Virus record (IMG/VR): IMGVR_UViG_3300044626_001580
Location: 1 to 48,000 of that record
Reading direction: 5' to 3' (one strand)
Source of the DNA: a virus
DNA length: 48,000 nt
This document shows, in pieces, positions 3,599 through 38,484 of this stretch (its first letter is position 1; every line of letters begins with the position of its first letter). The notes below the pieces were generated by a model. That model was given only the letters and a program-made list of their open reading frames with translations, was not told the DNA's origin and made no database searches. A program made the translations under genes and the position numbers.

Positions 3599-3941
3599 TC
3601 CTCCTTAACTTAAAAATAAATGTTATTTAAACTCAACTCCGGCTTAACTTTAATTCAGCCGGGGCAAAAGTCATGATTATATAAATTTAGGGAGAATAAG
3701 CCCAAACGCCCGCGCAATAAGGGTTTTGAGTTTTCCTGTTTTAAAAACGCCGGCGGGCAAATTGTCTTAGAAATTAGGTTTTAGTTTGTAAAGTTTTATG
3801 AAGCGTCAGGCAAAATCCCTATTATAAGAAAAAAACCTTGACACCATTAATGACGCTTGCCCGCCAGCGTAAAATTTTTAATTACTTGACAACGGTAGAT
3901 AGAGTATGGTAAAATTTAAGTGTAGATATTTAAATTAAGTT
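3599..3941. other. Structured intergenic region downstream of rep; possible origin or structured RNA
   Basis: There is no gene in these 343 bases. They hold a short dyad CCGGCT...AGCCGG near 3642-3665, and nested long-range complementarity: CGCCGGCGGGCAA (about 3750) pairs, with one mismatch, with TTGCCCGCCAGCG (about 3857), and within it AAGCGTCA pairs with TGACGCTT. The GC-rich arms stand out from AT-rich surroundings. The place beside an initiator gene fits a replication origin; a structured leader for the methyltransferase is the alternative. The promoter of the next gene sits at its right end. Confidence 0.4.
3886..3915 (+). promoter_or_regulatory. Promoter of the methyltransferase gene (ACGGTAGA family)
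   Basis: TTGACA, an 18-base spacer beginning ACGGTAGATA, then TAAAAT. The start codon at 3942 is about 20 bases after the expected transcription start. Confidence 0.65.
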
Positions 3942-6320
3942 ATGGCATACATTACAAAGCTAGAGGAAGAATTAGAGTTAGAAATTCTCCAGTTAAAAAG
4001 AGAATTGGATAGGGTAAGGGGTCTTGGCAAGAATAAAATTATCCAAGGCGATTGTTTGGAGGTTTTAAAAACTTTGCCTGATAATTATTTTGATAGTTTA
4101 ATAACAGATCCACCGTGCGGAATTAGCTTCATGGGTAAGAATTGGGATGATCATAAAGGCGGGATGCTCCAATGGATTAATTGGATGTCTGAGGTTATGG
4201 CAGAAAGTTTAAGGGTTATGAAACCAGGAGCGTGTGGTTTAGTTTGGAGTATCCCAAGAACATCGCACTGGACTGGCATGGCTTTAGAGTTGGCAGGGTT
4301 TAGGTTGATTGATATTGTGCATCATTGCAATGGGTGTCTATCTGAAGATACGGAAATATTTGTAAAAGATAAGGGGTGGGTACACTACCAACAATGTGAG
4401 ATAGGAGATACAGTAATAGGCTATAATATAGAAAATAATTCATTTTCTTACCAAAGTGTTACGCAAACCTACCGTTTCGACTACTCGGATACCGCATACC
4501 GAATTGAATCAGATTCTACAGAGCAAATTGTCTCCATCGGACATCGTTGCATTATTGAACAAAACGGAGCGTTTGTATTTAGAGAAGCCACTACACTTGA
4601 ACAGCAAGTATCAGTTCCCTTTTTGGAAACAGTGCCTCTGTTGCAACACACCATTTCAGACACACAATGCTTTTCAGGCTATGAGAAATATAACCTGCTC
4701 AGAGACTTGTGCAAAGAGTCTAATAGCCAAAGCCAAGACAGGGAAGAGAGTACCGACCTGTGTATGTCAAGAGTGCCAGATGGAGTTCTATCCCAAAACA
4801 AATCAGTCAATTCAGAAGTTTTGTTCTCGAATGTGTGCAAGCAAGGACAAAAAGAAGAATCCCAAAACACTGGAACATCTCAAGAACATTGCAAAACTGG
4901 GTCGTGCGGGTTGGACGGAAAAGAGTCTGGAATCTTATGCAGTCAGCATGGGTGGCGAGAACAATCCGGCATGGAAGGGCGGTGTAACGATATTCAAAAA
5001 GAAAGGGAATTACAAGAATGTTCGTTATGTCAGATGCCCCAAGGATTATCTTGCAATGGCAAGGAAAGATGGTTATGTAATGGAGCATCGTTTGATAATG
5101 GCTCAACAATTGGGAAGATGTCTTTTAAGAACGGAATCTGTGCATCACATCAACCACGATCCTACAGACAACAGGATAGAGAATTTAATGCTATTTCAGA
5201 ACAACAGTCATCACAAGCTATACGAACACGGCAATCTGGATGTAAAACCACTTTGGCAACCGTAACACCCTTTCATTATGAAGGCGTTGTTTGGTGTGTA
5301 TCTGTACCTGACACAGCCTTCATAGCAAGACGCAATGGTAAAATATTTGTAACAGGTAATAGCGGCTTCCCCAAGGGACAGGATATTAGCAAAGGTATAG
5401 ATGCGTTCTATGGTGCTGAAAGGGAAATTATAGGGAGCGTTAAGCATGGGAAAAAAGCGTTAGGCTTGATGAATGATGATAGCTGGGAAGCTAAAGAATT
5501 TGTAAATGTTACAAAACCTAATACACCCGAAGCAAAACAATGGGACGGTTGGAAAACCCCGGCACTAAAACCAGCCATTGAGGGTTGGTGGTTAATTCAA
5601 AAACCAATTAGTGAGAGTAGTATTGCTAGGAATATTTTAAAACACGGCGTTGGCGGGTTGAATATTGAAGCGTGTAGGATTGGGACTGAGGGATGGAGTC
5701 GCAAAAACGGAACAGTCCCTAGTAAATTTTCTGGTAAATACAATAACGGTGTTGATTATCAAAGATACGAACTAGGAAATATCCGGTCATCGCAAAGTCG
5801 CTACCCTGCCAACCTAGTCCTTTCCTGTAGTGCTGGTTGTGACGGTGATAACCATATCCCAGATTGTCCGGTGTCAGTTATTGGTGAACAGAGCGGGATT
5901 AGTGTTAGTACGGGAGGAAAGACTAAAACAGGATTACAAGGTTCTTGTTATGGAGATTTTAAAAACCAATCATTAGCACAAAATTCCGGCGGGTTAGGGG
6001 ACGCAGGAACAGCCGCAAGATATTTCAAGCAACTACCATTTGACCCTGAAACGGTAAATAGCGTTTACTACCAAGCTAAAGCATCAACCAAAGATAGAAC
6101 CTGTGACGGCACGGTAGAAAATACACACCCGACGGTTAAAAGTACAGCACTGATGGAATATTTTATAAAACTTATAACTCCTCCAAATGGCATGGTTTTA
6201 GATCCGTTTGGCGGTAGTGGTACAACTGGAGTTGCTGCTAAAAACTTAGGATTTAACTACACATTAATTGAAAGAGAACAGGAATATATTGAGATTATTA
6301 ACCAGCGTTTAAATAATTAA
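3942..6320 (+). CDS. Site-specific DNA methyltransferase (amino-methyl type) interrupted by an intein
   Basis: The precursor has 792 residues; removing the intein (residues 132-473) leaves about 450. The extein shows the beta-class motif order: a catalytic-type motif TDPPCGISFMGKNWD near residue 50, and the AdoMet-binding DPFGGSGTTGVAAKNLG near residue 755. Joining HHCNG to SGFPKG across the intein restores a block common in phage DNA methylases, which confirms the insertion point. Cysteine replaces the usual tyrosine of DPPY; related phage enzymes also vary there. Residues 1-25 look like a coiled coil. It probably methylates phage DNA at adenine N6 or cytosine N4; the target cannot be read from sequence. 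It has its own promoter and a strong downstream hairpin, so it is probably transcribed alone. Confidence 0.8.
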   Translation: MAYITKLEEELELEILQLKRELDRVRGLGKNKIIQGDCLEVLKTLPDNYFDSLITDPPCGISFMGKNWDDHKGGMLQWINWMSEVMAESLRVMKPGACGLVWSIPRTSHWTGMALELAGFRLIDIVHHCNGCLSEDTEIFVKDKGWVHYQQCEIGDTVIGYNIENNSFSYQSVTQTYRFDYSDTAYRIESDSTEQIVSIGHRCIIEQNGAFVFREATTLEQQVSVPFLETVPLLQHTISDTQCFSGYEKYNLLRDLCKESNSQSQDREESTDLCMSRVPDGVLSQNKSVNSEVLFSNVCKQGQKEESQNTGTSQEHCKTGSCGLDGKESGILCSQHGWREQSGMEGRCNDIQKERELQECSLCQMPQGLSCNGKERWLCNGASFDNGSTIGKMSFKNGICASHQPRSYRQQDREFNAISEQQSSQAIRTRQSGCKTTLATVTPFHYEGVVWCVSVPDTAFIARRNGKIFVTGNSGFPKGQDISKGIDAFYGAEREIIGSVKHGKKALGLMNDDSWEAKEFVNVTKPNTPEAKQWDGWKTPALKPAIEGWWLIQKPISESSIARNILKHGVGGLNIEACRIGTEGWSRKNGTVPSKFSGKYNNGVDYQRYELGNIRSSQSRYPANLVLSCSAGCDGDNHIPDCPVSVIGEQSGISVSTGGKTKTGLQGSCYGDFKNQSLAQNSGGLGDAGTAARYFKQLPFDPETVNSVYYQAKASTKDRTCDGTVENTHPTVKSTALMEYFIKLITPPNGMVLDPFGGSGTTGVAAKNLGFNYTLIEREQEYIEIINQRLNN
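4335..5360 (+). other. Intein in the DNA methyltransferase (342 residues)
   Basis: The intein starts with Cys132 (CLSEDTEIF, block A), continues through GDTVIGYNI and a block B SIGHRCIIE, and ends with VVWCVSVPDTAFIARR and KIFVTGN before an extein Ser474. The last residue is Asn as needed for cyclisation; the usual penultimate His is Gly, a variant seen in some phage inteins. Between about residues 235 and 435 the intein frame stays open but looks non-natural (rich in Q, S and C), because the same DNA encodes an HNH endonuclease in the +1 frame. Splicing is inferred, not shown. Confidence 0.8.
4456..5265 (+). CDS. HNH homing endonuclease encoded out of frame inside the intein
   Basis: This frame is shifted +1 relative to the intein. 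It carries two Cys4 zinc-finger-like modules (CLCC with CSETC, then CQEC with CSRMC, residues about 60-145), a basic linker, and an HNH core with MEHRLIMAQQLGR, SVHHINHDPTDNRIENL and SHHKLYEHG at about 210-260, ending with its own stop. The cysteine and histidine pattern leaves little doubt that this frame is coding. The open frame begins at a GTG at 4456, but only the part after about 4625 looks like the endonuclease, so the true start is unknown (a later GTG, TTG or the ATG at 4681 is possible). It would spread the intein by cutting intein-free alleles. Confidence 0.78.
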   Translation: MLRKPTVSTTRIPHTELNQILQSKLSPSDIVALLNKTERLYLEKPLHLNSKYQFPFWKQCLCCNTPFQTHNAFQAMRNITCSETCAKSLIAKAKTGKRVPTCVCQECQMEFYPKTNQSIQKFCSRMCASKDKKKNPKTLEHLKNIAKLGRAGWTEKSLESYAVSMGGENNPAWKGGVTIFKKKGNYKNVRYVRCPKDYLAMARKDGYVMEHRLIMAQQLGRCLLRTESVHHINHDPTDNRIENLMLFQNNSHHKLYEHGNLDVKPLWQP

Positions 6321-6323
6321 CAA

Positions 6324-6371
6324 TTTTAAAATACCAATCTAAAAAATAAAGTTTAGATTGGTATTTTAAAA
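6324..6371 (+). terminator. Perfect 20-bp hairpin after the methyltransferase
   Basis: Arms 6324-6343 and 6352-6371 are exactly complementary around an eight-base loop, and the right arm contains TATTTT. It lies directly between the methyltransferase stop and the next promoter, so it probably ends that transcript; the symmetric AT-rich ends would let it work in both directions. Confidence 0.65.
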
Positions 6372-6378
6372 TAAGGAC

Positions 6379-6407
6379 TTGACGACGGTAGATAACTAAT
6401 GTATAAT
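6379..6407 (+). promoter_or_regulatory. Promoter of the recJ-thymidylate operon (ACGGTAGA family)
   Basis: TTGACG, 17-base spacer beginning ACGGTAGATA, then a consensus TATAAT. It precedes a chain of closely spaced genes from 6434 to 11188. Confidence 0.75.
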
Positions 6408-28532: not shown

Positions 28533-31500
28533 ATGTTTAACGAAGTTTATGCTCCGTCCGCAAAACCTGTGTTTTACCGCACTTATTCAAGAAGTAAAAA
28601 AGAGACATGGCAAGATGTTTGTGACCGGACAATTACGGCATTAATTTCTCTGGGAAAATTAACTAAGGCTGAGGGTGACTTAATTAGGCGATCGCAGGAA
28701 GAATTTAAAGTATTAAGTAGTGGAAGGTGGCTGTGGTGTGGCGGAACAGACTGGTTAAAAAAGCCAGAAAACGTTTACGGTGCTTATAATTGCTCATCCA
28801 CAAACATTACAGACTGGGAAGCATTAAGCTTAATGATGAATTTGGCTATGCAGGGATGCGGGACTGGCGCAGTGTTGGAAGATAAATATATTAAAAATCT
28901 TCCTATTATAAGGAATAATTTAAGCGTAGAGATTGTTAATTTACCTGGCACTGTAAAAAAAGAAAACAGGCACGATGACACTATCGTTAGCGGCGCGCGC
29001 GGACAAGTTAACATTTTTGTTGGAGATAGCCGTAAGGGTTGGGTAGACTCTTACCTTACACTTCTAGAGTTGTCTTCAAGGGAAGATTTAGCGAAAAACG
29101 TTAAAGTTTTCGTTTGCTTAGGTGCGGTAAGAAGTAGTGGGGAAAAACTTAAAGGCTTTGGCGGAACAGCTAATCCCATAGCTTTAGCTGGGATGTATGG
29201 AAAATTAGCTAAGATTTTAAACGGGGCTATAGGTCGCCAACTTACCGCTTTAGAGTTATGCAAGTTAATTGATGAGGCTAGTGTTACAATTGTAGCCGGA
29301 AATATAAGAAGGTCGGCGGGCATGAGACAGGGTTCGCCAGAAGATATAGAGTTTGCAACAGCTAAAGATAACTTGTGGCAACAAGACAATGAGGGTAACT
29401 GGAAAATAGATCCTGACAAAGATTGCTTAAGAATGGCTAATCATACGTTAGTTTATCACCGTCGCCCAACTTTAGAAGAGGTCAAAAAAAGTGTGCAAAA
29501 ACAATTCCACAGCGGTGAAGGTGCAATTCAATGGGCTGGCGAAGCGGTAGCTAGAGCTAACGTGGATTTACTCTCTAATAAGGATTTAAAAAATAAGTTT
29601 TTAGACTTATACAATAAGTCCTTAAATGAAGCATTAAATTTTTTAGCTAAGTTAGGGCTGTTGAGTATTACTGAAGCGGAAGAAAGGATGTCTAGGTACG
29701 CTACCAACCCTTGTTTTCGTGGGGATATGAAAATATTAACTAAAGATGGTTACAGAGCATTCGAGTCGTTGGACGGTCAAGATGTAGAGATAATTAACGC
29801 AGAGGGCAATGTTTCTCTATCTCATATATGGTGTTCAGGTGAAAAGGAAACCGTAAGGGTAGGAATGGGGGCTTATGGAAGTATTCACTGCACTCCAGAT
29901 CACTCTTTTTTAAATATTGATGGCAAAAGAGTTGACGCATCTGAATTAAGACCGGGTGACAGATTAATGCCATTCTTAAAAGTGCCAGAGCATAAGAATA
30001 AAATATTCGTTTGTTTAGGATTTGTCCAAGGTGATGGTCAATTATCTGATTTATCTGATTTGAAAGGCGACAAAAAAGGGCAACTAGGTGTTGCTGTCAA
30101 CATAGGTAAAAAGGATCAAGAAATCCTAGAATTTTTCCAAGAAACGGAAGGTTTGAAATGCAAGAAACATGGCGAAAGGCGTATTTATGTTAACGGACTG
30201 AATGAGTTAATTGACAAATACGACTTTTCTCTTTACACCCTTCCATTTCGCGCACTCCCATCCACTTATAAAGGCTGGGACTTAGACATAAAAGCATCGT
30301 TCTTGTCTGGACTTTATTCAGCTAACGGCAGTGTTCTAAAAAACGGCAGAGTGACCTTAAAGACGACCTGTAGAGAAATGGGCGAACAGGTTGTTGATTC
30401 TTTAAAAGCAGACTTTGGCATAGAAGCTTATATTACCATCAACCGACCGTCAACCGTATCGTTTCCTAACGGTATTTACCAATGTAGAGAAAGTTACGAC
30501 GTAAATATTCAGCAATACAAAGGGAGACTTTCATTCTTCAACCAAATCAACTTTATTCATTCGTACAAGATTGATAAATTTGCCAAAACTCTCTTGGCAA
30601 CCTCTCCCTCAATATCGGTAGTAGAAAAACAAGGGATTGTAAAAGTTTATGATTTTTCTGAACCAATAACGCACTGGGGTGTAGTAGAGGGCTTTGTCGC
30701 GCATAATTGCGGAGAAATTGTGGGTAACAATTTTTTCTGCGATCTCGCTGAAGTACACCTAAACACGCTAGATGGAAAAGACTTAAATAGTTTAAGAGAC
30801 TCATTTAGGGCTGCGGGTTTAATTGCAGCCGTACTATTAAATGACAAATTCCCTGACGAGAGATATCAAAAATCTAGGGAGTTAGACCCTATTGTTGGCG
30901 TTAGCTTTACTGGCTTATTTGACTTTTTCGTTAATTTATTTGGGGAAAGTTGGTTGCGCTGGTGGGAAGGCGGCAGGGAGGAATACTCAGACAGAGACTT
31001 TATCACATCAAAGGATTTAGAAAATTGGATAGAAACATTCCCAGATGAGGTAGTTGAAATTATTAACGATTGGAATAAAAGCCAAGGGAAATTTGCTATA
31101 AAACACCCCGGCGTTTGCAACGGACTACTTTTTAAAGCCTTGGAAGAATTTTACCTGACGCTTTTTAAAGATGAAGCCCATAAAGCAGTTTGGGAATACT
31201 GTCATGCACATTCGCTTAAACGCCCCAATAGATGTACTACGGTGCAACCAAGCGGGACTAAGAGTCTCTTAACTGGCGCGTCTCCTGGTTGGCATCCTCC
31301 AAAAGCTGCTAGATTTATCCGTCGGATTACTTTTGGCAGAGACGATGCAGTAGCTTTAGCTTGTATGGACTATGGCTACAGTATTATTCCTTCCCAATCT
31401 TGTAAAGATGCTGAGGGTAATTTATTAAACGATCCATTTGACCCAAGAGTTACGGAATGGTTGGTAGAAATTCCCACAAAAACTAGCTGGGCGGATAACA

Positions 31501-31916
31501 TCGGGGAAGATGTAGATATAAGCAAATTTAGCGCAAAAGCCCAATTTGACTTTTACCTACAAGTACAAAATTACTACGCAACTCACAATACTTCAGCAAC
31601 TTTGGAAATACGTCAAGAGGAAATTGGGGAATATGCACAACTCCTTTACCAGAACATCCAAAATTGTGGCGGATATAGTTCTGCGGCACTTTTGGCAAGA
31701 TTTGACGGTGGCGAAACTTTCCCTCGTCTGCCATTTGAGCCAATTTCTAAGGAAAAATATGAAGATTTATGGGGAGAGGTTTTAGCTCGCCGTAAAAATA
31801 GTAGTTTTGATGAACTTTTGCAAATAAGGTTAAGCGCAGCGGAAGTGGAAGATTCTCAAGTTGGCCCGGCCGGATGCGACTCGGATAAGTGCTTATTTAA
31901 GGAAGAGGGCAAATAA
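28533..31916 (+). CDS. Adenosylcobalamin-dependent (class II) ribonucleotide reductase with intein
   Basis: The precursor has 1127 residues; without the intein about 795 remain, close to the Lactobacillus leichmannii-type ribonucleoside-triphosphate reductase. It makes deoxynucleotides from ribonucleotides with a cobalamin-generated thiyl radical. Visible blocks are AYNCSST (redox cysteine, about residue 88), GNIRRSAGMRQG, NPCGEI rebuilt across the intein (radical cysteine), CTTVQPSGTKSLLTGASPGW, and a C-terminal Cys pair GCDSDKC for re-reduction by thioredoxin. It is monocistronic, bounded by a divergent promoter region and a strong terminator. Class II suits a host that makes cobamides and lives under oxygen. 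Confidence 0.92.
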   Translation: MFNEVYAPSAKPVFYRTYSRSKKETWQDVCDRTITALISLGKLTKAEGDLIRRSQEEFKVLSSGRWLWCGGTDWLKKPENVYGAYNCSSTNITDWEALSLMMNLAMQGCGTGAVLEDKYIKNLPIIRNNLSVEIVNLPGTVKKENRHDDTIVSGARGQVNIFVGDSRKGWVDSYLTLLELSSREDLAKNVKVFVCLGAVRSSGEKLKGFGGTANPIALAGMYGKLAKILNGAIGRQLTALELCKLIDEASVTIVAGNIRRSAGMRQGSPEDIEFATAKDNLWQQDNEGNWKIDPDKDCLRMANHTLVYHRRPTLEEVKKSVQKQFHSGEGAIQWAGEAVARANVDLLSNKDLKNKFLDLYNKSLNEALNFLAKLGLLSITEAEERMSRYATNPCFRGDMKILTKDGYRAFESLDGQDVEIINAEGNVSLSHIWCSGEKETVRVGMGAYGSIHCTPDHSFLNIDGKRVDASELRPGDRLMPFLKVPEHKNKIFVCLGFVQGDGQLSDLSDLKGDKKGQLGVAVNIGKKDQEILEFFQETEGLKCKKHGERRIYVNGLNELIDKYDFSLYTLPFRALPSTYKGWDLDIKASFLSGLYSANGSVLKNGRVTLKTTCREMGEQVVDSLKADFGIEAYITINRPSTVSFPNGIYQCRESYDVNIQQYKGRLSFFNQINFIHSYKIDKFAKTLLATSPSISVVEKQGIVKVYDFSEPITHWGVVEGFVAHNCGEIVGNNFFCDLAEVHLNTLDGKDLNSLRDSFRAAGLIAAVLLNDKFPDERYQKSRELDPIVGVSFTGLFDFFVNLFGESWLRWWEGGREEYSDRDFITSKDLENWIETFPDEVVEIINDWNKSQGKFAIKHPGVCNGLLFKALEEFYLTLFKDEAHKAVWEYCHAHSLKRPNRCTTVQPSGTKSLLTGASPGWHPPKAARFIRRITFGRDDAVALACMDYGYSIIPSQSCKDAEGNLLNDPFDPRVTEWLVEIPTKTSWADNIGEDVDISKFSAKAQFDFYLQVQNYYATHNTSATLEIRQEEIGEYAQLLYQNIQNCGGYSSAALLARFDGGETFPRLPFEPISKEKYEDLWGEVLARRKNSSFDELLQIRLSAAEVEDSQVGPAGCDSDKCLFKEEGK
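29712..30707 (+). other. Intein with LAGLIDADG endonuclease in RNR (332 residues)
   Basis: The intein runs from Cys394 (CFRGDMKILTKDGY) to GFVAHN before extein Cys726, with a block B SIHCTPDHSF. It splits the RNR exactly before the radical cysteine, a known RNR intein site. Two LAGLIDADG-like helices are seen: CLGFVQGDGQL (about 493) and SFLSGLYSANGSV (about 587). The second has Asn where the catalytic Asp is expected, so nuclease activity may be weakened or lost. All splicing residues (Cys, His, His-Asn, Cys) are intact. Confidence 0.88.
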
Positions 31917-35950: not shown

Positions 35951-36334
35951 ATGGAAGGATTAAAAAAAATAAACATTGGCGACATTTACTGGATGCCTTC
36001 AAATAAACCTATTGATAAAAAATCAATAGATATTAAATTAATAGTTACTAAAGTAGGCACTAAGTTTATCTATGCTAATAATGAAGATACAAATTGGGAG
36101 TATAAGTTTACTTTTAAATCTGATGGTGTACTGGATTTAGTAAATAATATATGTTCCGGTAAGGCTTATTCTGAGGAGCAATGGGAGAAGCAAAAGCTAA
36201 TTATCAAGTTGGATAAATTAACTCAAAAATTCAAACAAGAGTTTTCGCAAATTAATAATTCTACAGACTTTAAAAAATATCAAGAGTTGGTTAGCGAAAT
36301 GAATGAATTGTCTCAAAAGATTTTAAATCTATGA
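35951..36334 (+). CDS. Unknown protein with C-terminal coiled coil (127 aa)
   Basis: Residues 1-70 look like a small beta domain (IDIKLIVTKVGTKFIYA, YKFTFKSDG); residues 75-127 are a charged coiled coil (KLTQKFKQEFSQIN). A good ribosome binding site (AGAGAGG) precedes the ATG. Its stop overlaps the start of the Dam gene. No family is recognised. Confidence 0.6.
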   Translation: MEGLKKINIGDIYWMPSNKPIDKKSIDIKLIVTKVGTKFIYANNEDTNWEYKFTFKSDGVLDLVNNICSGKAYSEEQWEKQKLIIKLDKLTQKFKQEFSQINNSTDFKKYQELVSEMNELSQKILNL

Positions 36335-37251
36335 AGATCGCATACAACAACCCTCAAGCTATAACCGTCCTTCCCAATAATGCAAAATTAAAATACGAAC
36401 ATGACTTTAATTGTTTAACAGAAATAGTTAAAGATAAAAATTTTAAACCATTCCTTAAGTGGGTAGGAGGCAAAACTAGATTAATTCCTCAATACGAAGA
36501 ATTAGGATTAATCCCCGCCGAATTTAATACTTATTTTGAGCCATTTTTAGGTGGCGGCGCAATGTTTTTCCATCTCCAAAATGCGGGGTTAATACAGAGG
36601 GCTTTGTTAAGTGATTTAAACTCGGATTTAGTGAATACTTATAAAGAAGTTAAGGATAATTTAAGTAAATTAAAACAAGTTCTTTTAAAGGAATTTGCAG
36701 AATCTCACGATAAGGTTTTTTTTGAAGAAGTAAGGAACAAAACTTTTACGTTAGATGTTTATAATGCCGCAAAGTTTATTTACTTAAATAAGGCTTGTAG
36801 ATCAGGAATGTATCGCGTTAATAAAAATGGCGAGTTTAATGTCCCAATGGGGGATTTAACACAAAAGATTTACCAGCCAATATTATTAAGTGAGGCAAAC
36901 TTAGCCTTAAACAGTAATAATGTAGCGGTAGTTAATACATCTTTCTTTAATATTAGTCATTTGCCTCAACCTGGCGATTTTGTATTTTTAGATCCACCTT
37001 ATCATGGGACTTTTAATGGTTATAACAAAAGCCCGTTTGGGGAAGATGAGCAAGTTAAATTAAGAGACGTATGTAGGGAATACAATGAAAATAAAATAAA
37101 GTTTTTACTTTGCAATTCTCACAATAGTTTTATTTTAGATTTGTACAATGGGGATGAATTTAAAATTAATGAAGTTTGGAGAAATGGTACGATAAATAGT
37201 AAAGGCGCGGAAAGAGGTAAAGTTAAGGAGTTAATTATTAGTAATGTATGA
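36331..37251 (+). CDS. Dam-type DNA adenine N6-methyltransferase
   Basis: The 306-residue protein is a D12-class (alpha) adenine methyltransferase: AdoMet motif FLKWVGGKTRLI (about 43), FEPFLGGGAMFFHL (about 69), the LNKACRSGMYRVNK segment (about 152), and the catalytic DPPYHGTF (about 221). The first 40 residues are an extra leader. Dam enzymes of this class often target GATC, which is the core of the HIP1 palindrome of the probable host; the actual target is not readable. Confidence 0.88.
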   Translation: MKIAYNNPQAITVLPNNAKLKYEHDFNCLTEIVKDKNFKPFLKWVGGKTRLIPQYEELGLIPAEFNTYFEPFLGGGAMFFHLQNAGLIQRALLSDLNSDLVNTYKEVKDNLSKLKQVLLKEFAESHDKVFFEEVRNKTFTLDVYNAAKFIYLNKACRSGMYRVNKNGEFNVPMGDLTQKIYQPILLSEANLALNSNNVAVVNTSFFNISHLPQPGDFVFLDPPYHGTFNGYNKSPFGEDEQVKLRDVCREYNENKIKFLLCNSHNSFILDLYNGDEFKINEVWRNGTINSKGAERGKVKELIISNV

Positions 37252-37468
37252 CCCATTTTTAAACACAATAAAAATACTTCATATAGAGGTATTGTGGCAG
37301 ATGCTTTATAACATAAAAGAAAGCGTAGAAATATTGGAAAAACAATCTGTGGCGCAGGAGAAAAGTAAGGATTATAAAAATTATTATAAATCCTTTAAAT
37401 ACCTAAATCAGTGCCGCTGGAAAGTTTTGGAGATTAGCAAAGAAATAGAAAGTAGGGTTTTGAAATAA
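37244..37468 (+). CDS. Small helical protein between two methyltransferases
   Basis: A 74-residue, mostly helical protein with a hydrophobic start (LNTIKILHIEVLWQML) and a basic, Tyr-rich middle. It overlaps the Dam stop by eight bases and the next gene's start by one, so it is firmly in the operon. No family is recognised. Confidence 0.55.
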   Translation: MYDPFLNTIKILHIEVLWQMLYNIKESVEILEKQSVAQEKSKDYKNYYKSFKYLNQCRWKVLEISKEIESRVLK

Positions 37469-38484
37469 TGAAAAAGTTTTTATGGTTTTCGCATTTTAGC
37501 GGCGGTGGCGGCTCAACTTTGGGAGCAATCCAAGCTGGGTTTATGCCTTTGCTGGGGATTGAGTGGGATAAGAAAGTGGCGGAATTATATGAGAAGAATT
37601 TAGGTAAAGTAATTTGCCAAGATATAGGAGAGGTAAGTATCCTAAGTGTTATAAAACATATTCCATTAAAAGAGGCAAGGGAAAAGAATAATGAGATTTT
37701 AGTAATCCAAACTTCGCCACCATGTCAGGAGTATTCCCAATTAAAACTAAATAAAAATCCTAATTCCGAAAGTGCAAAAGTCATTTGGAAGACAAGGAAG
37801 TTTTATGCTTTATTTAGACCTGAATATGTAATTTTAGAAAACGTTAGGGCTTATGCTAAAAGCGAGGTTTATATTAAATTTAAAAATTACCTTAAGGAAT
37901 TAGGCTATGAAATAAGTTTTGAGGAGATAGTTAACTGTGCTGACTATGGCGTGCCACAAACTCGCCAAAGATTAATTACTATTTTTAACTATAGAAATTT
38001 CCCTGCCGTAAGGATTAGTTCTACGCATAGTAAAAATAATGGTGAATGGGTAGGATGGTACTCAGCAATTGAAGATTTAATCCCTAATTTAAAAGAAGTT
38101 AGTTTAACCAGAAAACAACTTAACTCTCTAAGTTTAAGGAATAAAGGCTTTAGTAATGCCAAGGTAGTCGTAGAAAGAGTTGGCGTAAGGAGTGGGGTGA
38201 ATAAAATCCGTGAGGAAGATTCACCAATTTGGACTTTAAAAGCATCTTTAGGAAGCGATGGAAAGGGTGCGAATAGGGAAAAGTTAATAGATGTAAGCAT
38301 AAATGGCGTTGTAAAAGGCTTAAACGTGGCGTGTTTGGCTAGATTGCAGACTTTTCCGCCAAGTTATGAATTTTCTGGCAAAAACGCCTTGGATGTTCAT
38401 GTAATTGGCAATTCTGTACCACCATTACTTATTAAAGTAATTTGCGAGGAGATAAAAAATACTTTTAATACTTTTGGGGATTGA
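37468..38484 (+). CDS. C5-cytosine DNA methyltransferase
   Basis: At 338 residues it has the full motif set: AdoMet motif I FSGGGGSTLGAIQAGF (about 9), catalytic TSPPCQEYS (Cys about 88), VILENV (about 121), QTRQRL (about 164), a target-recognition region of about 100 residues, and motifs IX-X with LARLQTFP and VIGNSVPPLL at the end. It would make m5C in phage DNA. No cognate restriction enzyme is near. Its stop codon overlaps the -35 of the next promoter. Confidence 0.9.
   Translation: MKKFLWFSHFSGGGGSTLGAIQAGFMPLLGIEWDKKVAELYEKNLGKVICQDIGEVSILSVIKHIPLKEAREKNNEILVIQTSPPCQEYSQLKLNKNPNSESAKVIWKTRKFYALFRPEYVILENVRAYAKSEVYIKFKNYLKELGYEISFEEIVNCADYGVPQTRQRLITIFNYRNFPAVRISSTHSKNNGEWVGWYSAIEDLIPNLKEVSLTRKQLNSLSLRNKGFSNAKVVVERVGVRSGVNKIREEDSPIWTLKASLGSDGKGANREKLIDVSINGVVKGLNVACLARLQTFPPSYEFSGKNALDVHVIGNSVPPLLIKVICEEIKNTFNTFGD

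Follow-up and report, generated by a model that had tools for sequence, protein, structure and literature searches.

An out-of-frame HNH endonuclease gene nested within a phage methyltransferase intein belongs to a conserved kind of mobile element

A textbook intein is a single polypeptide that carries both splicing and endonuclease domains. Inteins with an in-frame HNH endonuclease exist, for example the cyanobacterial GyrB intein, and their endonuclease is part of the intein polypeptide. Group I introns that contain an HNH ORF (I-HmuI type) carry the endonuclease gene in a self-removing insert, and it is translated on its own. The ShiLan domain is an out-of-frame HNH insertion in a phage methylase without intein domains (Arsenault, Gosselin and Gogarten 2025, PMC11855218). 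Phage methylases also carry a LAGLIDADG intein of 327 amino acids, at the insertion site of the intein analysed here (Gosselin et al. 2023, PMC9957025). We found no published intein with an out-of-frame endonuclease in the accessible literature; a preprint (10.1101/2025.01.02.630785) and Gorbalenya 1998, both relevant, lie outside that scope. The preprint, which is cited in PMC11855218, deals with non-canonical intein architecture in actinobacteriophages.

The window, a stretch of 48,000 nucleotides of viral DNA (IMG/VR record IMGVR_UViG_3300044626_001580), contains a methyltransferase ORF of 792 codons (3942-6320) with no break anywhere. Pfam N6_N4_Mtase matched it in two stretches across the whole ORF (E 1.9e-27), and the intein host is an N4/N6-adenine-type methyltransferase. 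The intein boundaries are exact: it runs from C1 to N342, starts with CLSEDTEIF, ends with VTGN and is followed by Ser+1 of SGFPK at 5361 (Table 1). The Pfam Intein_splicing match was below the curated cut-off. We also considered an intron, and this reading of the insert was ruled out since no group I/II intron RNA core was matched in Rfam up to E 1 in 3900-6400.

The HNH ORF lies wholly within this intein. It contains a complete and significant Pfam HNH_3 match at 5086-5214 (E 2.8e-9), and the same domain was matched in 22/22 HNH members tested. Both zinc fingers are of the CxxC...C type, and all zinc ligands and catalytic residues are present. When the HNH gene was recoded synonymously, the intein frame acquired on average 20.0 stops with the gene's own codons and 24.0 with flanking codon usage, and no draw was free of stops (0 of 2000 and 0 of 1000). 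Tested gene by gene in the same way, every HNH gene showed this stop depletion in the intein frame. The sequence-only reading had placed the endonuclease out of frame within the intein, and this is borne out by two open ORFs, the significant HNH_3 match and 0 intein-frame stops where 20-24 were expected. It had also located the HNH stop at the onset of the C-terminal splicing domain, which we place at 5253. Its estimate of about 600 shared bases was too low, as the overlap with the intein frame comprises the whole HNH ORF of 810 nt.

Table 1. Features of the methyltransferase gene, its intein and the nested HNH ORF (window positions)
Feature	Position	Strand	Basis or remark
N-extein, N-terminal methyltransferase part	3942..4334	+	Pfam N6_N4_Mtase; colinear with intein-less L057
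Intein, 342 aa, C1 ... T-G-N / S	4335..5360	+	methyltransferase frame; fold prediction; empty site in L057/L058
N-terminal splicing domain (C1, block-B His)	4335..4630	+	AF2 pLDDT ~90, residues 1-105
HNH endonuclease ORF, 269 aa from GTG 4456	4456..5265	+	+1 frame; start uncertain; stop 5263-5265
Dual-coding stretch: splicing-domain block B / HNH N-terminal helices	4477..4626	+	conservation, AF2, substitution pattern
Intein-frame unstructured spacer carrying the HNH gene	4627..5252	+	AF2 pLDDT ~33; only stop avoidance constrained
HNH-frame zinc finger 1 (C60, C63, C81, C85)	4633..4710	+	(nearly) invariant alignment columns
HNH-frame zinc finger 2 (C104, C107, C123, C127)	4765..4836	+	(nearly) invariant alignment columns
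HNH-frame catalytic core (EH..., HH, N239, N243, H253)	5071..5226	+	HNH_3 Pfam match; invariant columns
C-terminal splicing domain (VWC ... FVTGN)	5253..5360	+	begins at LATV, over last HNH codons and stop
C-extein, remaining methyltransferase and stop codon	5361..6320	+	Ser+1 in SGFPK

The first close relative was LR756508.1 (L002), an unannotated 484-kb metagenomic phage that shares the methyltransferase and the intein site and has a +1-frame HNH at 42-44% identity. Our survey covered 275 sequences: viral and genomic contigs from scans with alignments of the HNH and of the intein, to which phage records and the window itself were added. With copies removed, at least 70 distinct intein-nested HNHs were present at the window's site, all of them in the +1 frame. 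An HNH in frame with the intein or the methyltransferase was not found in any of the 275 sequences, so the comparison of relatives proposed with the sequence-only reading came out in its favour. The 18,372 host-frame codons of the 70 intein-nested HNHs contained 0 stops; the third frame had 1,127. The zero is partly by construction because an open enclosing frame was required for this class. Support independent of it comes from the first 39 HNHs, examined without this requirement, among which none had intein halves and a broken intein frame, from the third-frame stops, and from the synonymous-recoding expectation, which is far undercut. The three members derived from MAGs carry the organism labels Bacteroidota, Pseudomonadota and Acidobacteriota. 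With two relatives as tblastn queries, the only intein-nested member recovered was the metagenomic LR756508.1, and none came from an isolated phage; the actinobacteriophage preprint therefore probably does not cover the window's intein group, and the principle may be covered. Indel error, which would have refuted the sequence-only reading, is excluded because other contigs supply at least 70 distinct elements with the same architecture. This means that the two-frame design represents a conserved type of mobile element rather than a slip in sequencing.

Two phage contigs, L057 and L058, lack the element, while their main aligned flanks are 97.6-99.4% identical to the window. Where the window has HHCNG-[intein]-SGFPKG, both contigs have HHCQGSGFPKG. 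Most of the differences are concentrated at the junction itself and over the ~150 bases that follow it on the 3' side, and such divergence at and just 3' of the empty site is as expected from co-conversion of flanking DNA with the element. A second divergent patch is found further 3', so the gene is mosaic anyway.

We propose that one stretch of DNA, read in two frames, would give two proteins, an intein and an independent zinc-finger HNH homing endonuclease. In the methyltransferase frame, two splicing halves would flank an unstructured spacer of ~180 residues, and self-removal of the intein would restore a working methyltransferase. The +1 frame of the spacer DNA and of the end of the N-terminal splicing domain would encode the HNH protein, most likely made from an internal start codon in the splicing domain. 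The endonuclease may then cleave methyltransferase genes that lack the intein, at the SGFPK site or close to it, and the whole element would be copied into the cleaved gene during repair. For this reading, a self-splicing intein with an internally initiated, separately made HNH that drives homing, we estimate a probability of about 0.8. The analysis establishes the architecture, its conservation, the empty site, the predicted folds and the asymmetric selection, while splicing, translation, cleavage and homing are inferred from them. Against the mechanism stands the lack of expression, splicing or cleavage data, and HNH cleavage of the empty allele is inferred only from the empty-site and co-conversion patterns.

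The start codon of the window HNH is uncertain. The conserved start column of the family (window 4477) holds an ATG in 29/66 relatives and none in 37/66. Since the window reads TCG there, it needs GTG 4456, the nearest upstream start, which has no Shine-Dalgarno, or some other start. Members with the ATG carried a Shine-Dalgarno of at least 5 nt at 5-11 nt in 9/29 cases, compared with 3.7 expected when the intein protein was kept fixed (P 0.004), and several relatives have a strong internal Shine-Dalgarno with an ATG (AGGAGGT or AAGGAG at 8 nt). The HNH could instead arise by programmed +1 ribosomal frameshifting from the methyltransferase/intein frame, fused to the N-terminal intein and without internal initiation, which would fit the absence of a good start codon in the window and of the start-column ATG in over half of the relatives. 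The strong internal Shine-Dalgarno and ATG pairs speak against it. So does the dual-coding constraint, which begins about at the start column: third-codon-position conservation in the N-terminal splicing domain, the 3' part of which is coded in the HNH frame too, climbs from about there. No conserved slip site was identified, without a systematic search. We regard frameshifting as unlikely, but as an expression route it is not excluded.

To describe selection we compared close pairs. Among the spacer substitutions, 50% were HNH-nonsynonymous where about 75% were expected, and 80% were intein-nonsynonymous where about 73% were expected, so the HNH frame is protected, whereas the intein frame is shielded only from stops. 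In the N-terminal overlap, 65% were intein-nonsynonymous and 67% HNH-nonsynonymous, so that both frames are mildly protected. Third-position identity at shared residues across the family was 0.50 upstream, 0.65 in the N-terminal overlap and 0.36 in the single-coding C domain. Judged by these patterns, the N-terminal splicing domain has about 150 bp under mild amino-acid-level constraint in both frames, and selection is asymmetric, since the intein frame of the spacer only avoids stops. Full amino-acid selection on the spacer intein frame was rejected because intein-nonsynonymous changes are as common there as expected, or commoner. The earlier suggestion of selection on both frames is thus upheld at the amino-acid level for ~150 nt of the N-terminal splicing domain and has to be given up for the spacer, where the intein frame is kept stop-free and no more. 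A pairwise synonymous-redraw test gave positive scores everywhere and in both frames, probably because codons shared by descent are not saturated, and it was superseded by the conservation and close-pair analyses. As a separate observation, intein codons ~17-20 (window ~4383-4394), ~30 codons before the HNH start column, show strong synonymous conservation (TAC CAT AAA); in this island the window departs from the family.

The HNH frame of the window might now be an untranslated, decaying passenger that is open by chance or recency, and the loss of the conserved start column would point in this direction. We find this improbable, as the ORF is complete with every zinc ligand and catalytic residue kept, and the HNH frame is under purifying selection across the family.

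AlphaFold confidence in the intein frame was close to 90 for residues 1-105 and about 300-348, but only about 33 for the ~180 residues in between. The intein frame is thus confidently predicted to be an intein fold with a disordered spacer of ~180 residues. A fold search with this model gave 14 PDB matches under an E of 0.001, of which most were inteins and the best had E 2.7e-5, and the nearest PDB match was the class 3 AceL NrdHF intein. Class 3 inteins (WCT motif) are recognised by Trp B:12, Cys F:4 and Thr G:5. In our family the Cys of VWC and the Thr of FVTGN are invariant, the Trp two residues past the block-B His is absent and C1 is present. The intein alignment has four invariant residues at the splicing positions, namely C1, the block-B His, the terminal Asn and Ser+1 (columns C4, H73, N345 and S346, offset because the alignment starts 3 residues before C1); the penultimate residue is Gly, not His. 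The HNH frame was modelled with a mean pLDDT of 83, including the two helices coded by the splicing-domain overlap. When the HNH model was used for a fold search, no PDB match reached significance, and no sequence relative of the HNH was found in the PDB. The mini-intein with a spacer and a separate endonuclease, as first suggested from the letters alone, are backed by the AlphaFold models and the substitution pattern; splicing and separate translation remain inferences.

It could also be that the intein does not splice and that the insert is tolerated as a long methyltransferase loop, as proposed for the ShiLan domain, whose authors favour tolerance (PMC11855218). Related HNHs nested in methyltransferases without any splicing domains would agree with this. 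However, the four invariant residues named above, together with splicing halves that are conserved in amino acids and predicted to fold as an intein, make a merely tolerated loop very unlikely. Paired indels from sequencing or assembly, which would have moved an in-frame endonuclease out of frame, have no supporting evidence and are ruled out by the same frame relation in 70 distinct elements from many assemblies, with an in-frame version in none.

We found 26 further HNHs nested straight in related methyltransferases without intein domains, 21 in the +1 and 5 in the +2 frame, those of phages ShiLan and Mantra being among the latter. In L003 (2155-3664) and L004 (1124-2704) the HNH ORF divides the methyltransferase into two ORFs (fractured-gene arrangement), and on a Curtobacterium plasmid the HNH stands alone, directly 3' of an uninterrupted methyltransferase gene without insert. 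L024 and L026 have two nested HNHs per methyltransferase gene, +1 and +2. A second, ShiLan-type +2 HNH was seen 3' of the +1-HNH intein in the same methyltransferase at L024 4076-4711, L026 3809-4261 and L163 4094-4714.

The HNH tree mixed intein-nested and intein-less forms, with 9 changes of the intein label, at least 4 of them forced by starred branches. This mixing suggests, with patchy support, that HNHs may have moved repeatedly between the two settings. The splicing-domain tree was clearer: a supported branch (97/90) separated all 69 HNH-nested inteins from the LAGLIDADG inteins, ShiLan's included, and from a mini-intein at the same site. We consider it likely that these inteins are a group of single origin with splicing and homing in two overlapping frames, where one frame would be an unstructured spacer and ~50 codons would be selected for both the splicing domain and the endonuclease.

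Elsewhere in the window, a ribonucleotide reductase gene (28533-31916) carries a second, canonical-type intein (CFRGDMKIL ... FVAHN / C). It has an apparent in-frame LAGLIDADG-type endonuclease, which makes it a useful in-genome contrast. ORFs at 36331-37251 and 37468-38484 resemble DNA methyltransferases, one Dam-like and one of the C5-cytosine type; three or more such enzymes may thus be encoded by the phage.

In the proposed arrangement the splicing and endonuclease jobs are genetically separate yet lie on the same bases, so endonuclease dose could be set separately, and the endonuclease could persist even as the spacer intein frame drifts freely. The ~70 elements are a natural, replicated case of overlapping genes in which constraint is measurable per frame. 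They also suggest a path connecting endonucleases that are free-standing, nested in methyltransferases or nested in inteins, as a single gene family has all three in it or beside it. Annotation pipelines that remove overlapping ORFs hide such endonucleases.

Compared with the known systems, our element differs from I-HmuI-type group I introns in that their insert is removed as RNA, whereas the window insert would be removed as protein and gives no Rfam intron signal. With the in-frame HNH inteins such as GyrB it shares an intein and an HNH endonuclease, but its endonuclease is not in the intein polypeptide. The LAGLIDADG methylase intein is inserted at the same point (G / SGFPK), and its splicing domains are homologous to those of our element; its endonuclease, however, is a LAGLIDADG in frame, and the splicing-domain tree puts this intein on the other side. 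With the ShiLan domain our element has in common a zinc-finger HNH lying out of frame within a methyltransferase of the same family, a stop-free host frame and a patchy, homing-like distribution. The ShiLan HNH, in contrast, is in the +2 frame, is inserted elsewhere, further 3' in the gene, and is only distantly related in sequence, and it has no splicing domains, whereas the window HNH is in the +1 frame with splicing domains around it.
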